54,383 nucleotides of DNA from Gammaproteobacteria bacterium (GTDB lineage Bacteria > Pseudomonadota > Gammaproteobacteria > GRL18): the NCBI GenBank assembly GCA_015488755.1, contig WFNB01000019.1:1-54383 (forward strand), in the 5' to 3' direction. Shown one piece after another: positions 6,921-49,399 of the stretch (position 1 is the first letter of the stretch; the number at the start of each line of letters is the position of its first letter). The notes under the pieces were generated by a model. It had not been told where the DNA came from. It made no database searches and saw only the letters and a list, made by a program, of their open reading frames with translations. The translations under genes and the position numbers were made by a program.

Positions 6921-8297
6921 TTAAAAAGGCATCCTACCCATACCACCGCCCATTCCCGGTGGCATACGTCCTTTTAAATTACGCATCATATTTTTCATAC
7001 CACCCTTAGAAAATTTCTTCATCATTTTCTGCATTTGCTTAAATTGCTTTAATAGGCGGTTAAGATCTTGAATTTGTGTCCCTGAACCCGCAGTAATTCG
7101 CTTTTTACGAGACCCCTTAATTAGTTCAGGGCGTTGACGTTCCATGGGGGTCATAGAATTAATAATGGCTTCAATCTTAACCAACTCTTTATCATTAACC
7201 TGATCTTTGACTTGGTTGGGGATCTCATTCATGCCCGGCAATTTGTCCATTAGGCCAGCCATGCCACCCATTTTCTTCATTTGCAGGATCTGATCACGAA
7301 AATCTTCTAAATCAAAATTTTTGCCTTTTTTGATTTTTTTCGCTAACCGAACCGCTTTTTTCTGATCCACTTTTTGCTGGGCTTCTTCAACCAAGCTTAA
7401 AATATCACCCATACCCAAAATACGTGATGCTAAGCGATCAGGGTGAAATGCTTCCAAAGCATCGACTTTTTCACCCACTCCCATAAACTTAATCGGTTTA
7501 CCGGTAATTTGGCGAATAGAAAGCGCTGCACCACCACGAGCATCACCATCTGTTTTGGTTAGAATAACACCGGTTAGCTCCAGTGCATCATTAAATGCTT
7601 TAGCCGTATTAGCGGCATCTTGACCCGTCATACTATCGACCACAAACAAAGTCTCGACCGGGGTAATGGCATGATGCAAGGCCTTGATTTCAGCCATCAT
7701 CTCATCATCAATATGCAAACGGCCAGCGGTATCAACAATGACGACATCAATGTGTTTCTTACGTGCATAGTCAATAGCATTACGACCAATATCAACGGGC
7801 TTTTGCGAGCTATCACTGGGGAAGAATTCTACCTCAACTTCTTTAGCTAGTGTCGCCAATTGCTCAATCGCTGCTGGACGATAGATATCAGCACTGGCAA
7901 CCAATACCGATTTCTTTTCTTGCTTAAGCCGGCGTGATAGTTTGGCGACACTGGTGGTTTTACCTGAACCCTGCAAGCCAGCCATTAAAATAACCGCCGG
8001 TGGCTGAGCATTTAAGGCAAGAGAATTATTAGTTTCCCCCATCATGGTGATCAATTCATCATTGACGACTTTAATAAAAGCCTGTCCCGGAGAAATGCTT
8101 TCAATAACCTCTTTGCCGATCGCACGTTCTTTAACTTGGGCAATAAATTCTTTAACAACAGGCAGAGCAACATCCGCCTCAAGAAGAGCCATACGAACTT
8201 CACGTAGAGTATCTTTGATATTATCTTCGGATAAGCGTCCCTGACCACGAAGATTCTTGACCGTTTTGGCCAGACGTTCCGTTAAACCATCAAACAT
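6921..8297 (-). CDS. ffh: Signal recognition particle protein Ffh
   Basis: GTPase that binds 4.5S RNA and signal sequences of inner-membrane proteins and delivers ribosomes to FtsY. The N domain covers about residues 1-85. The G domain has the P-loop GLQGSGKTT, DTAGR and TKTDGDARGG. The methionine-rich M domain ends in a Gly/Met-rich tail (GRMPPGMGGGMGRMPF). Length of 458 is typical. It lies just upstream of rpsP on the same strand and divergent from ypjD, a common gammaproteobacterial arrangement. Confidence 0.98.
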   Translation of the reverse strand: MFDGLTERLAKTVKNLRGQGRLSEDNIKDTLREVRMALLEADVALPVVKEFIAQVKERAIGKEVIESISPGQAFIKVVNDELITMMGETNNSLALNAQPPAVILMAGLQGSGKTTSVAKLSRRLKQEKKSVLVASADIYRPAAIEQLATLAKEVEVEFFPSDSSQKPVDIGRNAIDYARKKHIDVVIVDTAGRLHIDDEMMAEIKALHHAITPVETLFVVDSMTGQDAANTAKAFNDALELTGVILTKTDGDARGGAALSIRQITGKPIKFMGVGEKVDALEAFHPDRLASRILGMGDILSLVEEAQQKVDQKKAVRLAKKIKKGKNFDLEDFRDQILQMKKMGGMAGLMDKLPGMNEIPNQVKDQVNDKELVKIEAIINSMTPMERQRPELIKGSRKKRITAGSGTQIQDLNRLLKQFKQMQKMMKKFSKGGMKNMMRNLKGRMPPGMGGGMGRMPF

Positions 8298-8533
8298 AAA
8301 TTTAATGCACCTTTAATCGCGATTTATATAACTACCTAATACCGTCTTAGGTAATTCCAGTAAAAGCCACCGATATAAAACCGTGTGAACCGCTCATTAT
8401 AGTAATAATTATTGACACGAGAAAGTATTTTTTTAGCCGATTCAATACTTGACGCATAAATAGCCTGATAAACGGGTTGCCTTAGCTCTGAAAGCCATCT
8501 ATTATATGGCAATTACTCATAGATGAATTAGAT

Positions 8534-9343
8534 ATGCTTATTTTAGGAATTATCACCGGATTTCTCTATCTGGCTTGTGCCATTTGGTTGATATCAAATC
8601 TGCTCAATAAAAAAATTATTCAGGATGCCCCTCATAAAAGCATCTTAGGGATTGCTTTTGTCGCCTTGTCTGTGCACGCCTTTATCAGTTATTCCAGTAT
8701 TGTAGCTCCAACTCCAAGTGGTCTTAATGTTTCTTTTGTCAATAGTTTTTCTTTAGTTGCGTGGCTAGTGGTATTACTCTATCTCATTGCCGAACTACGC
8801 AAGCCCGTTGAGTTATTAGGTATCTTTATTTTCCCTATTGCCTGCATTGCGGTTTTTTTACAGCTTATCTGGCATGATGGAATTACCTTAGTGGATCGCA
8901 GTTTTGAACTGCAAGAACATATCCTATTATCCTTGCTTGCCTATGGTTTACTGGCCATTGCTGCTGGACAAGCCATTTTATTACTTATCCAAACCCATTA
9001 TTTAAAGAATAAACAGCCCGGTGGCTTTATCCGCTCACTGCCACCTCTGCAAAGCATGGAAACCCTATTATTTCAAATAATTCAAGTCGGCTTTATTCTA
9101 CTGACATTAGCCCTATTAAGTGGCTTTATTTTTCTTGATAACATTTTTGCTCAGCATCTCGTTCACAAAACCCTACTTTCAATCATTGCTTGGTTGCTCT
9201 TTGCCATACTTCTATGGGGTCGGTGGCACTTTGGCTGGCGTGGCAAAAAAGCCATTCACTTCACCTTAGGAGGCTTTATTTTTCTAATGCTTGCCTATTT
9301 TGGCAGTAAAATTGTATTAGAAATTATTTTACACAAAATCTAA
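8534..9343 (+). CDS. ypjD: YpjD-like membrane protein (CcsA/ResC superfamily)
   Basis: A 269-residue integral membrane protein with about eight hydrophobic segments. It resembles the YpjD/CcsA 'cytochrome c assembly protein' family: conserved histidines occur near VSVHAFIS, WHDGI and ELQEHILLSLLAYGLLAIAA. The CcsA heme-handling WWD loop is not evident. The family label therefore does not prove a role in cytochrome c biogenesis. It sits divergent from ffh and 43 bases upstream of a corB-like gene, the arrangement in which YpjD is usually found. The 236-base divergent gap should carry both promoters. Confidence 0.85.
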   Translation: MLILGIITGFLYLACAIWLISNLLNKKIIQDAPHKSILGIAFVALSVHAFISYSSIVAPTPSGLNVSFVNSFSLVAWLVVLLYLIAELRKPVELLGIFIFPIACIAVFLQLIWHDGITLVDRSFELQEHILLSLLAYGLLAIAAGQAILLLIQTHYLKNKQPGGFIRSLPPLQSMETLLFQIIQVGFILLTLALLSGFIFLDNIFAQHLVHKTLLSIIAWLLFAILLWGRWHFGWRGKKAIHFTLGGFIFLMLAYFGSKIVLEIILHKI

Positions 9344-13323: not shown

Positions 13324-15023
13324 GCAAACTATCCAAACAGGCCTATGCTGAAATGTATGGCCCCACTAAGGGTGATAGAGTACGTCTGGGTGATACCGAA
13401 CTCATATTAGAGGTTGAAGCCGATCATACCATTTATGGTGATGAGGTTAAATTTGGTGGTGGCAAAGTCATTCGTGATGGCATGGGACAGGGTCAGGGAT
13501 GCGCAACAGAAGTGGTTGATACGGTAATAACCAATGCCTTAATCATGGATCATTGGGGCATTGTTAAAGCTGATATTGGTATCAAAGAGGGGCGTATTGC
13601 TGCCATTGGTAAAGCAGGTAATCCCGATACTCAGCCTAATGTCAGTATTATTGTTGGCCCGGGCACCGAAGTCATTGCTGGAGAAGGGCAAATTGTGACC
13701 CCAGGGGGCATTGATTCTCACATTCACTTTATTTGCCCACAGCAAATTGAAGAAGCGTTAATGTCGGGCATAACCACCATGTTTGGTGGTGGTACAGGAC
13801 CTGCCACAGGAACCAATGCAACCACTTGTACACCGGGTATTTGGAATCTGCATCGCATGTTAGAAGCTGCCGATCAATTCCCTATGAACCTAGGCTTTAT
13901 GGGCAAGGGTAATGCCAGTCAAAAAGACCCTCTTAGAGAGCAAGTTGCTGCCGGTGCTATGGGCTTAAAATTACATGAAGACTGGGGCACTACCCCCGCT
14001 TCCATTGATACTTGCCTCAGTGTGGCAGATGAAATGGATGTCCAAGTTGCCATTCACACAGATACCCTAAATGAGTCTGGTTTTGTTGAAGACACCTTAG
14101 CTGCCTTTAAACACCGAGCCATTCATACTTACCATACCGAAGGGGCAGGTGGTGGTCATGCGCCTGATATTATTAAGCTCTGTGGTGAAGCCAATGTACT
14201 ACCATCAAGTACCAACCCGACTCGTCCATTTACCATCAATACTATTGATGAACACCTAGATATGCTGATGGTCTGCCATCATTTAGATGCCAGCATTGCC
14301 GAAGATGTTGCCTTTGCCGAGTCAAGAATACGCAGAGAAACCATTGCCGCTGAAGATATTCTTCATGATCTAGGTGCATTTAGTATGATAGCCTCTGATT
14401 CTCAGGCGATGGGAAGAGTGGGTGAAGTCATCACCAGAACATGGCAAACAGCCCATAAAATGAAAGTACAATTTGGTGCCCTAGAAGGCGACTCTGAACG
14501 TAATGATAATCAACGCATTAAACGTTATATTGCCAAATACACCATCAACCCAGCCATTACACATGGTATCTCTCATGAGGTCGGTAGTATTGAAGTCGGC
14601 AAACTAGCCGATATTGTCTTATGGAAACCCGCCTTTTTTGGTGCCAAACCCTCACTTATTATTAAGGGTGGTTTTATTGCCGCAGCCCCTATGGGTGATC
14701 CTAACGCATCCATTCCCACACCACAGCCTGTACATTATCGCCCCATGTTTGGTGCCTATGGTGCAGTACGAGAAAATACCAGCGTTACCTTTGTTTCTCA
14801 AGCAGCCATTGATAATAATATTGCCACCTCTATTGGCCTTAAAAAACGTTTAGTCGCGGTAAAAAATACTCGTTCTATTAGTAAGTCAGAGCTCTTACTT
14901 AATGATTATCAGCCTACTATTGAGGTCGATGCACAGACCTATGAAGTCCGTGCCGATGGCCGTTTATTAGTCTGTGAAGCCGCCACCGAGCTGCCTCTGG
15001 CACAGCGTTATTTCTTATTTTAA
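13320..15023 (+). CDS. ureC: Urease alpha (catalytic) subunit
   Basis: Hydrolyses urea to ammonia and carbamate with a two-nickel centre. The 567 residues include every metal ligand at the classical numbering: His134 and His136 (DSHIHF), the lysine to be carbamylated Lys217 (MGLKLHEDW), His246, His272 and Asp360 (IASDSQAMG). The active-site flap has Cys319 and His320 (MVCHHLD). There are no gaps or broken motifs, so the enzyme should be active once nickel is loaded. Confidence 0.99.
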
Positions 15024-30177: not shown

Positions 30178-30927
30178 TCAAGAAGGGCTTAACGTATCAA
30201 TTAAATCAATTAAAAATTCTGCTTCATCCTGCTCCATTATTTCCCATTTTTCAATTTCCATTGAGTTAAGAAGAGCCATCCCCTTCGTATCATCAGCCAT
30301 CATAATCAAGCACTTCTGCAAGAGTGATTTTTTATCCTGTAAATTAGGACCAAGTAATAAGGCATGGTGCAAGACATCAATTTTACTCGTAATTAATGGT
30401 TTTACCTGCTTTTTTACCAGAGAACTAAACTCATTATAGGCATCTGCTAATAAAAAACCAATATCAGCTTCCCCTGCAACCACTTTTTTAGCAACCGTAA
30501 TATAATTACTGCAAATTATTGCTTCAATATCACAAGAGTTAATATCTGCTGGTTCCAACATAATAGTACCCATGGTATTGACATCAGGCACATCTGTCAT
30601 GGCAACCCTTAAACTAGGTTTAAGAGATTCAATTGTATCAATAGGATTATCTGCATGAGTGATCACAACCGTTTCATCATGCACACCGACAGGCTTAACT
30701 AAGGCCTCAAATGATTTCTCTCTGATAAGTTTGGCAATATCACAAGGATTTGCATAAATTAAATCAATTGAATCTTTATCAATGCATTGCGCTAATTCTG
30801 AAAAATCATTCACTAAATTAAGATGAATGGCAATATCAGACTGTTTTTGTAGCCATGTGTTAAAGATATACCATCCTGAAATCAGATCAGGTTTAAAGTC
30901 AGGGCTAATAGTCATCGTATAAGACAT
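30178..30927 (-). CDS. PhnD-like substrate-binding protein without signal peptide
   Basis: A 249-residue periplasmic-binding-protein fold of the PhnD/phosphonate type: IDLIYANPCDIAKLI and GEADIGFLLADAYNEF match the two lobes of that family. There is no signal peptide or lipobox, and the protein begins MSYTMTISPDFKPDLISGW. It is therefore probably cytoplasmic. No permease or ATPase for phosphonate lies nearby. It lies 9 bases after the PAS gene, as the last gene of a seven-gene operon with a Ras-like GTPase. A ligand-sensing role within that module is more likely than transport. The ligand is unknown. Confidence 0.75.
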   Translation of the reverse strand: MSYTMTISPDFKPDLISGWYIFNTWLQKQSDIAIHLNLVNDFSELAQCIDKDSIDLIYANPCDIAKLIREKSFEALVKPVGVHDETVVITHADNPIDTIESLKPSLRVAMTDVPDVNTMGTIMLEPADINSCDIEAIICSNYITVAKKVVAGEADIGFLLADAYNEFSSLVKKQVKPLITSKIDVLHHALLLGPNLQDKKSLLQKCLIMMADDTKGMALLNSMEIEKWEIMEQDEAEFLIDLIDTLSPS

Positions 30928-30936
30928 ATTTTTTTC

Positions 30937-31413
30937 CTAAAAAAGAGTCGGATAACGTTCAATACATTCAGCTATTTTTTTTGCTGAAGGCTTTCTTCTT
31001 ACCGAGGTATAACTAATAATTTTATTATTACGAATATTAGGGATCACCGTAGCATAAACCCAATAAAAACCACCATCTTTACGAAGATTCTTAACATAGC
31101 CATACCATTTTTCTTTTTTCTGCACGGTTTCCCATAAATCAGAAAAAGCTTCATGCGGCATAAATGGATGCCTTAGTATATATTGCGGTTGACCAATGAG
31201 CTCTTCTTCTGTAAAACCTGACATCGTTACAAATGATTTATTAACATGAGTAATAATACCGTTTAAGTCTGTACGTGACACTATAAGAGAGCCTTCTGGA
31301 AACTCTGTTTCAATCTCTGTATATAATATGTTACGTTGCTTAGCATCAAAAAAAGTAAGCTGAATTTCCTCATAATTGTCACTGGCTAAATCTTCAATTT
31401 TCATATCCTGCAT
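30937..31413 (-). CDS. Aer-like PAS domain protein
   Basis: A 158-residue stand-alone PAS protein. The sequence TDLNGIITHVNKSFVTMSGF, then RHPFMPHEAFSDLWETV (Arg81, His82, Trp94), then the W103-to-W118 stretch with KNLRKDGG follows the FAD-binding PAS of the aerotaxis receptor Aer. No transmembrane, HAMP, kinase, GGDEF or methyl-accepting part is present, so output must be by protein contact. The Asp that follows the RHP in Aer is Phe here. It is most likely a redox or oxygen sensor for the neighbouring GTPase system. Flavin binding is inferred from resemblance only. Confidence 0.82.
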   Translation of the reverse strand: MQDMKIEDLASDNYEEIQLTFFDAKQRNILYTEIETEFPEGSLIVSRTDLNGIITHVNKSFVTMSGFTEEELIGQPQYILRHPFMPHEAFSDLWETVQKKEKWYGYVKNLRKDGGFYWVYATVIPNIRNNKIISYTSVRRKPSAKKIAECIERYPTLF

Positions 31414-31441
31414 AATATCAGCCTTGTTATTTCAGTTTAAG

Positions 31442-31804
31442 CTATAGTAATTTAGTAATACTATCAGCAGCACGTTTTACATCTAAAAAGATCAAACCTA
31501 ATTTTGCTTTAGGTTTTGCTAACACAGTAACAACCGCTTCTTCTCCGGCATGACTCATTAAGACAAACCCCTCTTGTCCTTTAATTAGCACTTGCTCCAA
31601 TTCTCCTCTAGCAAGTTCTTGTGATGTGCGGTCACCCAGAGAGAGCATGGCAGCACTCATTGCCCCCACTCTATCTTCATCAAGACTTTGCGGTAACACT
31701 GCTGCAATCATTAAGCCATCTGTAGAAATAACAGCAGAGGCTTCAATATCCGCTGACGTGCCATTTAACTCATTTAAAATTGAAGACAACATATCTTCTC
31801 TCAT
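31442..31804 (-). CDS. Roadblock/LC7 domain protein
   Basis: A 120-residue protein of the roadblock/LC7 (MglB-like) fold: SSILNELNGTSADIEASAVIS, DGLMIAAVLPQ, and the AAMLSLGDRTSQEL helix followed by VLIKGQEGFVLMSHAG. In Myxococcus and other bacteria such proteins are partners or activators of Ras-like GTPases. The ATG at 31804 is chosen because GGGGGAG lies a few bases upstream; an earlier ATG would add 30 residues without homology. It lies in the same operon as a GTPase gene, which strongly suggests the two interact. Confidence 0.87.
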   Translation of the reverse strand: MREDMLSSILNELNGTSADIEASAVISTDGLMIAAVLPQSLDEDRVGAMSAAMLSLGDRTSQELARGELEQVLIKGQEGFVLMSHAGEEAVVTVLAKPKAKLGLIFLDVKRAADSITKLL

Positions 31805-31880
31805 GATACTCCCCCTTAAGCCTATAAGCTCTTTTATAAAATAATCACAATTATAATTTTTATAATCTATATTTTGACAT

Positions 31881-32513
31881 TTAGTTATCACCAAAATAAC
31901 GTTTGTATAATATCCAGACTAACGATACAAATGATTCCTGATCCAATCTTGGTACCCCCGATATAATTAAAATAAAAACGGCACCACCAATATAAATAGG
32001 CCAAAATCCTAATTGGCTATAACCGGCGGCATCGACTAAGGCAAAGGCATTGGATTTAATATTCAGGTTACCTCTAATAATCCCTCGATGCCTAGAATAC
32101 ATGGATAATAAATCACCACTTAATGCTGATAGTTCTTCTGAGGCTTCATGAGAAAAACCGTAACCTGAAAGATAAAAGCCTTGGCCATCGGCTAATAATG
32201 CCTTACCCTCACTGGATAATTTTTTTAATACTTTAGGAAGCACCTCTTCTATCATTCCCTTAGGTATAGATTGTGCTTTTTCAAAGACTTGTAGCCATTG
32301 TAATTCCTGAATATGAAATAATATCTCTTCTGCTTTTGAATCACTATCGACAATAAATCGCTCAATTAAATCATTATCAAAATAGGGACTTTCAGTTGAT
32401 AAAAACAGTTGCTGTAAAAAATATTTAACTGGCTCTGAATCACTCGATGCTACACAATAAAAGGCACCTGCCGGTGAAGGTAAGACATATTTATTAATTA
32501 ATTGAAGTTTCAT
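31881..32513 (-). CDS. Unrecognised protein coupled to the GTPase, possibly longin/roadblock-like
   Basis: A 210-residue soluble protein not confidently recognised. The first 90 residues contain VLPSPAGAFYCVASSD and look like an N-terminal winged-helix-type region. The second half (about 95-205) has an alternating pattern (ALLADGQGFYLSGYGFSHEASEELSAL...YIGGAVFILIISG) that resembles a roadblock-like fold: DGQGFYLSGYG parallels the 'D-G-L-x-I-A' strand of such domains. Its ATG overlaps the GTPase stop (ATGA), so the two are made together. A role as GTPase partner is an inference from this coupling. Confidence 0.65.
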   Translation of the reverse strand: MKLQLINKYVLPSPAGAFYCVASSDSEPVKYFLQQLFLSTESPYFDNDLIERFIVDSDSKAEEILFHIQELQWLQVFEKAQSIPKGMIEEVLPKVLKKLSSEGKALLADGQGFYLSGYGFSHEASEELSALSGDLLSMYSRHRGIIRGNLNIKSNAFALVDAAGYSQLGFWPIYIGGAVFILIISGVPRLDQESFVSLVWILYKRYFGDN

Positions 32514-33052
32514 GCATGACACTCCAAACCAGGATCAATAGTAAAAAGAAGTGCTTGAACCAAATACGACATATCATTAAAATTACGAGCATCTACTTCA
32601 AATATTGCTCCCTGAACATCAAGCTCTTTTAGTTTCTCATAATATTTTTCTGTCGAAGCCAAGGGCATAATATCTGTTTGAGTAATACCAATTGCAATAG
32701 CGGTTTTATCAATATAGTCTTTAAATGAGTTAATAAAAAAAGACATATCTTGCATTGGATTTTTCCGTGTATTATCCAGTAGCAATATTAAACCTAAACC
32801 ATTTGTCGTTAATACTTCCCACATGAAATCAAAACGTTCCTGCCCTGGAGTACCGTATAGATGTATTTTTTCTTGACCATCTAAGGTCATTGTCCCATAA
32901 TCCAGAGCAACCGTTGTTTTAGATTTTTTTGCTTGAGTCATATCCGATGCACTTTGATTCGTACATACCGGTGCTTCATCACTTAAGGTTACCACCGCAG
33001 TGGTTTTACCTGAACCAACAGGGCCTGCAAAAATAATTTTAAAATCATTCAT
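32510..33052 (-). CDS. Small Ras-like GTPase (COG2229/MglA-related type)
   Basis: A 180-residue single-domain GTPase. G1 is GPVGSGKT (10-17). G3 is represented by YGTPGQERF (66-74), where the usual Asp is Tyr-Gly. The guanine-specificity motif G4 is TQTD (124-127) rather than NKxD. No membrane-anchor cysteine motif typical of eukaryotic Ras is present (the protein ends GLECHA, with one cysteine near the end). This type is distinct from UreG or Era. It occurs with roadblock proteins in several bacterial phyla. It sits in the centre of the operon, coupled to the downstream gene. Confidence 0.85.
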   Translation of the reverse strand: MNDFKIIFAGPVGSGKTTAVVTLSDEAPVCTNQSASDMTQAKKSKTTVALDYGTMTLDGQEKIHLYGTPGQERFDFMWEVLTTNGLGLILLLDNTRKNPMQDMSFFINSFKDYIDKTAIAIGITQTDIMPLASTEKYYEKLKELDVQGAIFEVDARNFNDMSYLVQALLFTIDPGLECHA

Positions 33053-33069
33053 TGTTCTTTATTATCTCT

Positions 33070-34359
33070 TTATGCGATATTATCAATTTTTGAATGGTTT
33101 GAGAGGTGAACCAATTTATTAAAAATTTTAGCTAAAATTGATTTATTCTTACTTGCTTTTGGCTTGTCATCCATAAAGAAGTAATCCACATTTCGTTGTG
33201 CTATATCTGATAAACCAATCGCTTTACTGGCACTATAAAATGCAAAAACATAACGCTGTTCAATCGCTAATGTTTGCGAAACCATTAATAATGAAGAGGG
33301 TTGGTTATATAAAAAAGCAGCTATGCGAACAGCATGGGGAATAGATGCCAAACGAGTGAGATTTGGCCAATACTGCAAGTAAACCGGTTTTGTTAAATCT
33401 GTACCCATAGGGATCCGTCCTCTTGAAGTCCATAAAGTAATTAACCAGATAAACCCTTCCATAGTCCAACTTTGTCTTTGCGTTGCCTTTTTGATCTTGT
33501 TACTTTTATTCTCTTGTGTGATCTTATGTAATTCATTTCTAAGCACGTTATTTTTTGTTTTAAATTGGTAATTATTTTTGTGTAACATAAGACATAAAGG
33601 TCGGATCTTAGCAGGCCCCACAGTGCTATAGATTTTTTGTTCCTCATAATCAAAATAGAAAACCGTATTAAGAACACTTAATTCAATGATTTGCTGTTTT
33701 TGTTTTGATAATTTGCATGCCTCTTTAATAATTGCTTGCAGTGTTGCTTCTGGTTTATAAGAAACCATCAATACTTGAGAGGGATCACCCCCATTAATAT
33801 CTTTATTATCACCCACAAAACACTCTTCATTTTCAACTTCAAGTAATTTACCTGCATTTATCACTGATGTTTTTTTAAATTTCTTTTCTTTTTTTAATGC
33901 TAACACTGGCTTGGTGTTTATGGATTTATTGGCTACCACTCGTAAAACAGGCGGTTTCTTATCTGACAAATCGTATTGGGAATCATTTGATTTATAGCAT
34001 AATTGCTTATGTTCTTTTTTATTTGATCGCTTAAGAATAAGATCACATAAGTATTCTAAGGTATTTTGTAGTACATCTCTCTTAACAGGTTTTCTAATAA
34101 AGAAATCTCTTTCTCGCAAACATTGGTGTTCGGATAAAGAAAGCAATAAGATATAAACATCTGGGTTATTATAGACAAGAGCATGATATTTTTCTTCAAA
34201 ACCATAGGCATCTTTATCTAGCAAGCAAAGTTGTGCTTTATTGCAATCATTAAGTAATACATAATCAATTTCTTTAATATTTTTAAAAAAAATCTCATAA
34301 GCTGAAATCGAACGAGCATCAATGCCAACAAAGGCCGTATGAATTGATAGAGTAGTCAC
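33070..34359 (-). CDS. Pseudo-receiver protein with conserved C-terminal domain
   Basis: A 429-residue soluble protein. Residues 1-110 look like a degenerate response-regulator receiver: LLDKDAYG holds a possible acceptor Asp and FIRKPVKRD the conserved Lys-Pro, but the acidic pair of the first strand is reduced to VGIDA. A basic, low-complexity linker follows at about 110-180. Residues about 320-415 (LTKPVYLQYWPNLTRLASIP, then LYNQPSSLLMVSQTL and QRYVFAFYSASKAIGLS) form a compact helical domain that may be winged-helix. It lies 17 bases upstream of the GTPase gene. By position it is comparable to the receiver protein RomR that works with MglA, but no homology is claimed. Confidence 0.65.
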   Translation of the reverse strand: MTTLSIHTAFVGIDARSISAYEIFFKNIKEIDYVLLNDCNKAQLCLLDKDAYGFEEKYHALVYNNPDVYILLLSLSEHQCLRERDFFIRKPVKRDVLQNTLEYLCDLILKRSNKKEHKQLCYKSNDSQYDLSDKKPPVLRVVANKSINTKPVLALKKEKKFKKTSVINAGKLLEVENEECFVGDNKDINGGDPSQVLMVSYKPEATLQAIIKEACKLSKQKQQIIELSVLNTVFYFDYEEQKIYSTVGPAKIRPLCLMLHKNNYQFKTKNNVLRNELHKITQENKSNKIKKATQRQSWTMEGFIWLITLWTSRGRIPMGTDLTKPVYLQYWPNLTRLASIPHAVRIAAFLYNQPSSLLMVSQTLAIEQRYVFAFYSASKAIGLSDIAQRNVDYFFMDDKPKASKNKSILAKIFNKLVHLSNHSKIDNIA

Positions 34360-34376
34360 TGTTGCTAATCCTATTA

Positions 34377-35063
34377 TTAGATATCTGAAAAATAATGTTT
34401 TGCTTCATCCCAATAACGAGATGTTAGTAATGTATTTGAAAATTTACTGTATGCCTTATTAAAGTTATCCCTATAATTAAGGGCTTTATATAAACTAATA
34501 AGTTTTATCGTTAATTGTTCATTTTCTTGATCATTTATTAAATGCATCGTCATATACTCTAAGGCCGTATCAAATTGACTGTTTTCAATATAAGAGTCTG
34601 CAGTAGCCATAACATCTTCAGTTTTAATTATTTCAGATTTAGAAGATTCATATAACTTAAGTTTTATCGGTTTTTTTGTCTTAAAATAACAATGATTTGG
34701 TAAGCGATATAACTCAGCAGCTAAAGAATCATTATTAATATAAGCAACTAATACTTTAATTTGTTGTTTGCTTAATTTAGACTTACTTAATTGTAATAAA
34801 CGTGTCCGCAACGCCATACCTAAGCTACCCAAAATAATAAATAAATCACATAGTGCAGCATATAATTCATGAGAGTATTTTGTTTTTAAAAAAAATTGAA
34901 CCCGTTGTAAATGACGAGATAAATCTTTGGGATCCTTCCTTAGGCTATACTCAAAATAATTCATTGCCTGAGATAATTCCAAAGCATTATTCTCAGCATT
35001 AATATGTTTAAGACCATAATAAAATGCTGGTTCTATTAATGGAATATTGTTATTTTTATTCAT
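34377..35063 (-). CDS. TPR-like helical protein, first gene of the GTPase module
   Basis: A 228-residue, strongly helical, lysine-rich soluble protein without signal peptide. Two regions resemble TPR repeats: LSQAMNYFEYSLRKDPKDLS near the N-terminus and DSYIENSQFDTALEYMTMHL near the C-terminus. The centre (LSKSKLSKQQIKVLVAYINN) is unlike known domains. It is the promoter-proximal gene of a seven-gene operon, 17 bases ahead of the pseudo-receiver gene. A scaffold role is plausible. I do not recognise the family. Confidence 0.65.
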   Translation of the reverse strand: MNKNNNIPLIEPAFYYGLKHINAENNALELSQAMNYFEYSLRKDPKDLSRHLQRVQFFLKTKYSHELYAALCDLFIILGSLGMALRTRLLQLSKSKLSKQQIKVLVAYINNDSLAAELYRLPNHCYFKTKKPIKLKLYESSKSEIIKTEDVMATADSYIENSQFDTALEYMTMHLINDQENEQLTIKLISLYKALNYRDNFNKAYSKFSNTLLTSRYWDEAKHYFSDI

Positions 35064-35277: not shown

Positions 35278-35429
35278 CATAGGTAGGTACTTAAGCATGT
35301 CTGAGGCAGGATAACTCTGTATTTACTACACAAGACGCCGTAAATCCATCCCTGGAGGCTTTATTGCCACATCCATGTGGCAAAAACTTCCTCCGTAAAC
35401 ACAGAGTTATCCTTAAGTACCTACGTATG
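35278..35429 (+). repeat. MITE-like element, copy A
   Basis: A 152-bp element in the 525-base gene-free stretch 35064-35588. Its ends are inverted: cataggtaggtacttaag on the left against cttaagtacctacgtatg on the right. The inverted match continues through ggataactctgt(a/g)tttac after a 13-base bulge in the left arm. The centre is a 9-bp hairpin (ttgccacat / atgtggcaa, 35364-35383). Flanks are near-direct repeats: aaaaaatatt (35268-35277) and aaaagatatt (35430-35439). It codes for nothing. The rest of the gap is AT-rich and must carry the GTPase-module promoter. The G-rich run at 35461-35467 is unexplained. Confidence 0.8.
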
Positions 35430-35588: not shown

Positions 35589-36353
35589 TTAGGGCAGTTT
35601 ATAATGATCCTGAGTGAATAAATCAACACCACATTCTAAATTTTCAATCCAAGTTAAAAATTCTTCAATCGCATTACCCACTAAGGCACGGCCATGCTGA
35701 GGAGCAATCATTTGCACATCAAGTTGTCTGATCATATTAACCCAAAAGCGACAGACTTTATTACTATTCATATAGCGACGATGAAAGCCTTCCATACAAG
35801 AAGTTATTTCGTTTAATGACTGTACAGGGACATCAAGCAAACTCTGATCTTTACAAAGATTCGCACCCATATCACCTGAGAATAAAATTTTACTCTTTGG
35901 ATCGTAGAAATTAAAATTTCCTTCTGCGTGCAAAAAATGAGCTGGTAAGGCCATTAATTTTATACTACCAAGATCCAAGTGCATGCCTTTATCTGGGATA
36001 GAAATACCACGTTCAGTCATTGTACCAGGGCGAGTGAAATGTGGTACAAAGCGTGCCCATAATTCCGGTACAACCACCTTACAATTAGTACCTACAAGCC
36101 ATTTACTTAATGAAGCAACAATATCAGGATCTTGATGCGAAGCAACCACATAATCAAGATTTTTAACATTCAGATACTTACCCACACCCATAAATAAACC
36201 AGAATAGGTTAACTCTCCTCCTGGATCAATAAGAGCTGCATGATCATGATCATAGACTAAGACTTGATTTGCTTGAACGGCTTCTTGCCCTCTAACTAAA
36301 TCACGAAAAATAATACACTTATGATCACCATCATTATACAGCTCTACCGACAT
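35589..36353 (-). CDS. Metallo-beta-lactamase-fold di-iron protein (ODP/FprA-like)
   Basis: A 254-residue cytoplasmic protein with the metallo-beta-lactamase fold of flavodiiron proteins but no flavodoxin domain. Candidate ligands are His73, Asp75 and Asp77 (SHQDPDIV, replacing the flavodiiron HxExDH), His139 or His142 (PAHFLHAEGNF), Asp161 (LFSGDMG) and His220 (APQHGRA). The pattern suits the oxygen-binding di-iron group, members of which bind O2 as sensors in spirochaete chemotaxis. It lies on the same strand upstream of the GTPase/PAS operon, separated by the MITE. An oxygen-related role with that operon is an inference. It could instead be an O2 or NO reductase lacking its flavin domain. 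Confidence 0.8.
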   Translation of the reverse strand: MSVELYNDGDHKCIIFRDLVRGQEAVQANQVLVYDHDHAALIDPGGELTYSGLFMGVGKYLNVKNLDYVVASHQDPDIVASLSKWLVGTNCKVVVPELWARFVPHFTRPGTMTERGISIPDKGMHLDLGSIKLMALPAHFLHAEGNFNFYDPKSKILFSGDMGANLCKDQSLLDVPVQSLNEITSCMEGFHRRYMNSNKVCRFWVNMIRQLDVQMIAPQHGRALVGNAIEEFLTWIENLECGVDLFTQDHYKLP

Positions 36354-49247: not shown

Positions 49248-49399
49248 CATACGGAGCTACTTAAGGATAACTCTGTGTTTACGAAGGAAGTTTTTGCCAC
49301 ATGGATGTGGCAATAAAGCCTCTAGGGATGGATTTACGGCGTCTTGCGTAGTAAATACAGAGTTATCCTGCCTCAGACATGCTTAAGTACCTACCTATG
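49248..49399 (-). repeat. MITE-like element, copy B
   Basis: The same 152-bp element as 35278-35429 in the opposite orientation, with only a handful of mismatches by eye. It keeps the central hairpin (ttgccacatggatgtggcaa, 49304-49323) and both arms. It is flanked by near-perfect direct repeats: aataaactac (49238-49247) and aataaactat (49400-49409). It lies between the DnaJ-related stop and recQ and ends 27 bases before the recQ start. It may therefore supply or disturb recQ expression signals. Confidence 0.82.

Follow-up and report, generated by a model that had tools for sequence, protein, structure and literature searches.

An MglA Group 3 GTPase gene cluster extended by PAS and PhnD-fold sensor-type proteins in a gammaproteobacterium

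We analyzed a window of 54,383 nucleotides (contig WFNB01000019.1 of the gammaproteobacterial assembly GCA_015488755.1), whose minus strand carries, from position 35063 to 30178, seven genes that form a widespread variant of the published MglA Group 3 GTPase system with added sensors. Its parts, their order and their co-inheritance are established by the data, its wiring and output being inferred: a Ras-like GTPase, a receiver-like protein (pREC) and two roadblock proteins (RB2 and RB1) are accompanied by a TPR-type protein, an Aer-type PAS protein and a PhnD-fold binding protein. We read the cluster, with a probability of about 0.45, as a switch that is gated by redox state or oxygen and by a ligand, and that probably acts on type IV pili. 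The seven open reading frames (ORFs), all found intact when the window was checked, are the following:

34377..35063, minus strand: TPR-type protein, 228 residues, cytosolic; TPR models match weakly here, better in relatives
33070..34359, minus strand: pREC, with a degenerate receiver (residues 3-119), a disordered linker and a C-terminal helical/winged-helix-like domain
32510..33052, minus strand: MglA Group 3 Ras-like GTPase by its motifs, 180 residues; GxxxxGK, TT in G2, GTPGQ, TQTD, DAR
31881..32513, minus strand: RB2 (MglB-1 type), with an N-terminal winged-helix-like part and a C-terminal roadblock domain in its model
31442..31804, minus strand: RB1 (MglB-2 type), roadblock/LC7 protein, 120 residues; Robl_LC7 match, Asp-Gly pair conserved
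30937..31413, minus strand: stand-alone Aer-type PAS-FAD protein by its matches, 158 residues; PAS model and 8dik
30178..30927, minus strand: PhnD-fold (PF12974) binding protein without signal peptide, 249 residues

The genes are closely packed, with spacers of 17 bp (TPR-pREC), 17 bp (pREC-GTPase), 76 bp (RB2-RB1), 28 bp (RB1-PAS) and 9 bp (PAS-PhnD), and with an ATGA overlap (-4 bp) between the GTPase and RB2 genes, given an RB2 start at 32513 that is backed by relatives. For RB1, the TTG start called mechanically at 31894 is wrong, and homologues begin at 31804 with MREDMLSSILN. Because a scan of the cluster for promoters and terminators gave matches no more frequent than in shuffled sequences, its status as an operon rests on spacing and conservation. 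The source genome (3.5 Mb, 100% complete) holds a single copy each of the GTPase and RB1 genes.

The GTPase carries the P-loop GxxxxGK, and in 12 aligned GTPase sequences the G2 residues T46 and T47 and the G3 motif G67-Q71 (GTPGQ) are invariant. Its G4 motif, TQTD, is devoid of the canonical lysine, and G5 reads DAR (residues 154-156), as it does in 11 of the 12 aligned rows, the remaining one having DGR. GTPGQ, a threonine in place of the G2 arginine, a lysine-less G4 and DAR are the motifs that define MglA Group 3 (PMC4316618), which Wuichet and Søgaard-Andersen described in 2014 in beta- and gammaproteobacteria as an MglA accompanied by one or two MglBs and by a conserved receiver-like/winged-helix-like protein (PMC4316618). 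The same neighborhood is found here, with pREC and with two MglB homologues, RB1 by its Pfam match and RB2 by its fold. Assigned in this way by motifs and neighboring genes, the GTPase, pREC, RB1 and RB2 are the published Group 3 system, a core that is already known, and pREC matches its 'conserved protein of unknown function' (PMC4316618). An earlier note on this DNA, which had presented the whole module as undescribed, was thus mistaken about the core (PMC4316618); the PAS and PhnD extension was not found in the literature searched, although the supplement of the 2014 paper might list such neighbors. Its parallel with the MglA-MglB-RomR switch of Myxococcus stands as far as kinship to MglA and MglB goes, but the GTPase falls into Group 3 and not Group 1, and a RomR-like nature of the receiver is unsupported. 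Where Group 1 proteins have TVPGQ and an intrinsic arginine in G2, the window GTPase has GTPGQ and Thr-Thr, and it is likely that Group 3 GTPases differ from Myxococcus MglA in catalysis.

RB1 matches Robl_LC7 (Pfam, 1.9e-14), shows 93-97% identity within its family and has a conserved D29-G30 pair, the Asp-Gly signature of the roadblock fold in the GTPase-activating protein (GAP) MglB. RB2 matches no Pfam or NCBIfam family; its AlphaFold2 model (pLDDT 92.9) shows a winged-helix-like N-terminal part followed by a roadblock domain (residues 88-210) that superposes on 3kye (Z 10.9, rmsd 3.1, 107 aligned) and on M. xanthus MglB (6h5b; Z 9.4, rmsd 3.2, 110 aligned). On the basis of this model RB2 is a roadblock protein, with D112 and G115 present in its consensus and the adjacent Asp-Gly pair absent.

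In the model of pREC, residues 3-119 fold as a receiver (3crn: Z 13.2, rmsd 2.2, 110 aligned), in which Asp48, Ser74 and Lys90 are near-invariant across relatives. Conservation does not extend to the acidic pair that follows strand 1, and the model lacks helix 4, so that the complete acidic pocket of a phosphorylatable receiver (Asp-Asp, Asp, Ser/Thr, Lys) is not formed; going by its residues, the domain is degenerate and not clearly dead. The C-terminal domain carries the conserved motif WPNLTRL..P and appears winged-helix-like, as judged solely from the secondary structure of the model. No Pfam or NCBIfam name was obtained for pREC, and none of 32 members matched a DNA-binding family. At locus L087 (7865-10462) the same C-terminal domain is fused, by eye, to a REC/GAF/histidine-kinase-like protein in a conservon-like arrangement. 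These features bear on a rival explanation, in which the same switch would control gene expression, the winged-helix-like parts of pREC and RB2 binding DNA under control of the GTPase. The authors of the 2014 study suggested a gene-regulatory output for Group 3, and the layout of pREC, with receiver, linker and helical/winged-helix-like C-terminus, favors it (PMC4316618), as does the winged-helix-like N-terminus of RB2; the 32 pREC members without a DNA-binding match argue against it, and the fusion at L087 suits a protein-docking domain equally well. We regard this explanation as rather unlikely, and as the main rival of an output through pili.

TPR models fit the first protein of the cluster weakly in the window sequence itself, and the name is backed by its relatives, 9 of 24 of which match TPR_19. 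Members of this family also resemble, weakly, the TPR models of FimV_Cterm, PilW and LapB; FimV_Cterm was matched by 2 of the 24 relatives (best value 0.0062), and, these matches being weak, an identity with FimV was not adopted. The betaproteobacterial equivalents are longer, with an N-terminal transmembrane segment.

The PAS protein matches the Aer PAS-FAD structure 8dik (E=1.9e-43), on which we class it as an Aer-type PAS-FAD protein with a predicted flavin; its 158 residues comprise the PAS domain only, and it carries none of the HAMP and MCP parts of the Aer receptor. The PhnD-fold protein matches PF12974 (3e-30), with PtxB and ArrX as closest PDB entries. It has no obvious signal peptide, hydrophobic N-terminus or transmembrane stretch, and its start lies at or near the same conserved residue in 14 aligned relatives. 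PhnC and PhnE transporter genes were not found among the neighbors examined, and a search for ORFs with HMM matches to two families revealed no fusion joining PAS, PhnD and roadblock domains. The PhnD-family fold serves as a signaling input in AioX and ArrX (PMC5908839). Taken together, the parts list of the earlier note agrees well with these results: it had proposed seven same-strand genes with spacers of at most 76 bases and an ATGA overlap (found here at -4 to 76 bp), a Ras-like GTPase with a roadblock/LC7 partner, a coupled second protein of roadblock type, a degenerate receiver, an Aer-like PAS and a binding-protein fold without signal peptide. For the TPR protein it is the relatives that bear the name out.

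In order to follow the cluster in other genomes, a GTPase profile search was run over 352 genomes of the class, 67 of which were positive, and 60 further neighborhoods were read; a database scan with a PhnD profile gave 393 relatives, and cluster counts were taken from the 79 best loci. Among the sampled genomes of the class, the order TPR-pREC-GTPase-RB2-RB1-PAS-PhnD occurs in some ten families besides that of the window, and at least 44 among the 79 best loci keep the exact seven-gene order, including those of Methylomonas, Methylobacter, Methylotuvimicrobium, Thiothrix, Thiodiazotropha and others. Co-occurrence in other genomes, on which the earlier note had staked its proposal, thus extends to many families. 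In 36 sampled two-MglB clusters, namely those with room downstream, PAS and PhnD are both present (14) or both absent (20), with PhnD alone in two damaged loci and PAS alone in none; the two genes behave as an added pair that is hardly ever separated. A PhnD-like gene (E<1e-70) is carried by 16 of the 352 genomes, and 14 of these also have the GTPase (Fisher p=2e-9, the genomes not being independent). On the GTPase tree, the distribution of PAS-PhnD implies a minimum of 7 changes across well-supported branches, although rows L025 and L027, scored 'none', are contig-cut or damaged and the real minimum could lie closer to 5. Gain or loss of the pair occurred repeatedly.

Ten clusters contain a protoglobin gene (PF11563, with 3.9e-23 at L102), mostly in the gap between RB2 and RB1 (L102, at 8056-8649, L082, L086, L092, L073, L137, L158, L161, L188 and L156), and PAS-PhnD is absent from four of the five protoglobin clusters sampled. 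That one set of clusters carries a predicted flavin sensor and another a haem sensor, within the same operon, argues for an oxygen- or redox-related input. Fusion of a globin to a roadblock domain is known in Methylacidiphilum (PMC4476040). On an Agarilytica plasmid (L021, 4267-5943), a gene for a BLUF flavin photoreceptor directly precedes those for an MglA-like GTPase and a roadblock protein. PAS-PhnD could also be an independent two-gene sensor that merely shares the mgl operon, since the pair is split from the cluster at L139, L141, L193 and L196 (a GTPase match being still present in the genome) and occurs in clusters devoid of the GTPase. We consider this quite unlikely in view of the genome-level co-occurrence with the GTPase, of the position of the pair nearly always directly after RB1, and of the parallel presence of protoglobin in such operons.

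Copies of the cluster in the window's own family are broken at L035 (genome G013) and L028 (G017), with a GTPase-gene insertion accompanied by transposase-like ORFs, and with in-frame stops; several genomes of the same genus are without the GTPase. This could be the picture of a cluster decaying in this lineage and of little function, an explanation that we find highly improbable given that the seven window frames are intact and that identity to relatives is 93-98% for RB1 and mostly 75-81% for PAS. The PhnD frame of the seven-gene cluster of G090 is divided in two. In N. gonorrhoeae, records that are filed as plasmids (L019, 4891-7180) have pREC, GTPase and RB2 frames that are each split, these three being intact in a relative (L078). 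At L033, L084 and L106 one pREC gene is flanked by two GTPase genes.

With respect to output, at three loci from three families (L034, L104 and L109) a Group 3-like cluster is divergent from a REC-REC-CheW-MCP-CheA operon in the order pilGHIJ-chpA, which we name Pil-Chp-like by its order and layout. PilT is found in 67 of 67 GTPase-positive genomes versus 302 of 352 overall (p=1e-5 in a naive count); as proof of a pilus output this co-occurrence was dropped, since the PilT-less genomes are mostly small and relatives are not independent. FliF shows no enrichment among GTPase-positive genomes (41/67 versus 152/285, p=0.28), and a flagellar output was rejected on these grounds. The notion that the sensors serve aerotaxis or chemotaxis by flagella instead of pili draws on the FliF of the window genome and on the usual role of the Aer PAS in flagellar aerotaxis; with FliF unassociated, with no MCP or CheA domain within the cluster, and with a seven-gene cluster but no FliF match in G090, it is very unlikely. 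A pilus output has precedents in Myxococcus, where MglA-GTP acts on pili via the cytosolic TPR protein SgmX (PMC7519303), and in Snodgrassella, where mutation of an orphan Group 3 mglB alters soft-agar spreading of the type IV pilus type and gut colonization (PMC11112851). We favor type IV pili as the output because of the Pil-Chp-like neighbors, PilT, the unassociated FliF and the SgmX precedent, and infer that pili are a likelier output than gliding or flagella.

In such a sensor-equipped, pilus-directed switch, RB1, with its Asp-Gly pair, would be the GAP for the GTPase, and RB2 would modulate RB1 much as MglC modulates in Myxococcus. The PAS protein would report redox state or oxygen through its flavin and the PhnD-fold protein a small cytosolic ligand, and both would jointly change the action of RB1 and RB2 on the GTPase. 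The read-out would be provided by pREC and the TPR protein, the latter working like SgmX, an MglA-GTP effector, or as a FimV-like hub, and type IV pilus activity or polarity would follow, so that twitching or attachment to surfaces would depend on energy or oxygen. The extension probably lets internal conditions steer surface (pilus) movement. That a flavin redox sensor, or a haem globin in sister operons, gates the roadblock proteins jointly with a cytosolic transporter-derived binder, so as to tie respiration or metabolite state to type IV pilus polarity in methanotrophs and sulfur oxidizers, is a more tentative and somewhat doubtful proposal.

Several observations weigh against the switch as we propose it. 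The GTPase is missing from 17 of the 79 best loci, where the other genes are kept. These loci (L183, L176, L203, L162 and about 13 similar ones) have the order TPR-pREC-RB2-RB1-PAS-PhnD and belong to Amphritea, Neptuniibacter, Marinobacterium, Motiliproteus and relatives (Oceanospirillaceae type); at L183 only ~36 bp lie where the GTPase gene would be expected, and in three of four such clusters examined the phospho-Asp position of pREC is Asn. Most of the genomes concerned have other MglA-family GTPases elsewhere, in longer frames; two have no MglA-family match at E<=1e-8, and the sensors may therefore act on something else there. Furthermore, the STSS loop of PtxB, which we take to be oxyanion-binding, is aligned to DPDV in the window protein. 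As for pili, pilus-specific domain models gave no match on the Pil-Chp-like neighbors, which were found only at clusters without PAS-PhnD; PilT co-occurrence is weak evidence because PilT is nearly universal; and the winged-helix-like part of pREC may point to gene regulation, in line with the 2014 proposal.

Beyond the cluster, a gene of the ODP family (O2-binding di-iron type; 35589-36353) adjoins it in the window, an adjacency not found in relatives; it was rejected as an eighth member, no ODP match lying near the relatives' clusters. A 146-bp MITE-like inverted-repeat element is present at 35280-35425, immediately upstream of the TPR gene, and at 49252-49397; the genome holds at least 40 near-identical copies of it. 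The next operon, on the opposite strand, comprises Urt-type urea ABC genes, and within the urease gene region an Rfam match to the 5' ureB sRNA (13469-13755, minus strand) is probably due to conservation of the coding sequence for urease.

How signals reach MglA-type GTPases in bacteria other than Myxococcus is largely an open question, and in the literature searched no function has been given to Group 3 since 2014, hints from Snodgrassella aside. The extended operon names concrete candidate inputs, namely a flavin PAS, a protoglobin and a PhnD-fold binder, and its presence in the culturable Methylotuvimicrobium buryatense and Methylomonas sp. LW13 makes the question testable. A transporter-type binding protein retained in the cytosol as a signaling part would be unusual in itself.

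Among known systems, the closest is MglA Group 3 of Neisseria, Xanthomonas, Stenotrophomonas and Snodgrassella, which shares the GTPase motifs, the receiver/winged-helix partner, one or two MglBs and the gene order; a Neisseria locus reads TPR-pREC-GTPase-RB2-RB1, as the window does for these five genes. In the main text of the published Group 3 description, PAS, PhnD, protoglobin and TPR proteins are not among the partners listed, whereas the window cluster or its relatives have them. The Group 1 module of Myxococcus xanthus (MglA/MglB/RomR/SgmX) has a GTPase, roadblock proteins, a receiver and a TPR protein in common as kinds of part, the likeness of pREC to RomR and of the TPR protein to SgmX being one of kind; it differs by TVPGQ and a G2 arginine, as opposed to GTPGQ and no G2 arginine finger, and, unlike it, the window genes stand in one operon with extra sensors. 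Actinobacterial conservons (CvnA-D, Group 2) are also sensor-fed MglB/MglA operons with GTPGQ and DAR motifs, but their histidine kinase CvnA and their CvnC are absent from the seven window genes, where PAS and PhnD would be the sensors. The Aer receptor shares PAS-FAD, which here stands alone in a GTPase operon without HAMP or MCP. AioX, ArrX and PtxB share the PF12974 fold, used by AioX and ArrX as a signaling input; in contrast, the window protein is predicted to be cytosolic, has no transporter or kinase partner in its operon and does not conserve the PtxB loop. Finally, HGbRL of Methylacidiphilum couples haem-binding and roadblock domains by fusion and with another globin type, whereas the protoglobin of the window's relatives is a separate gene, placed mostly between RB2 and RB1.

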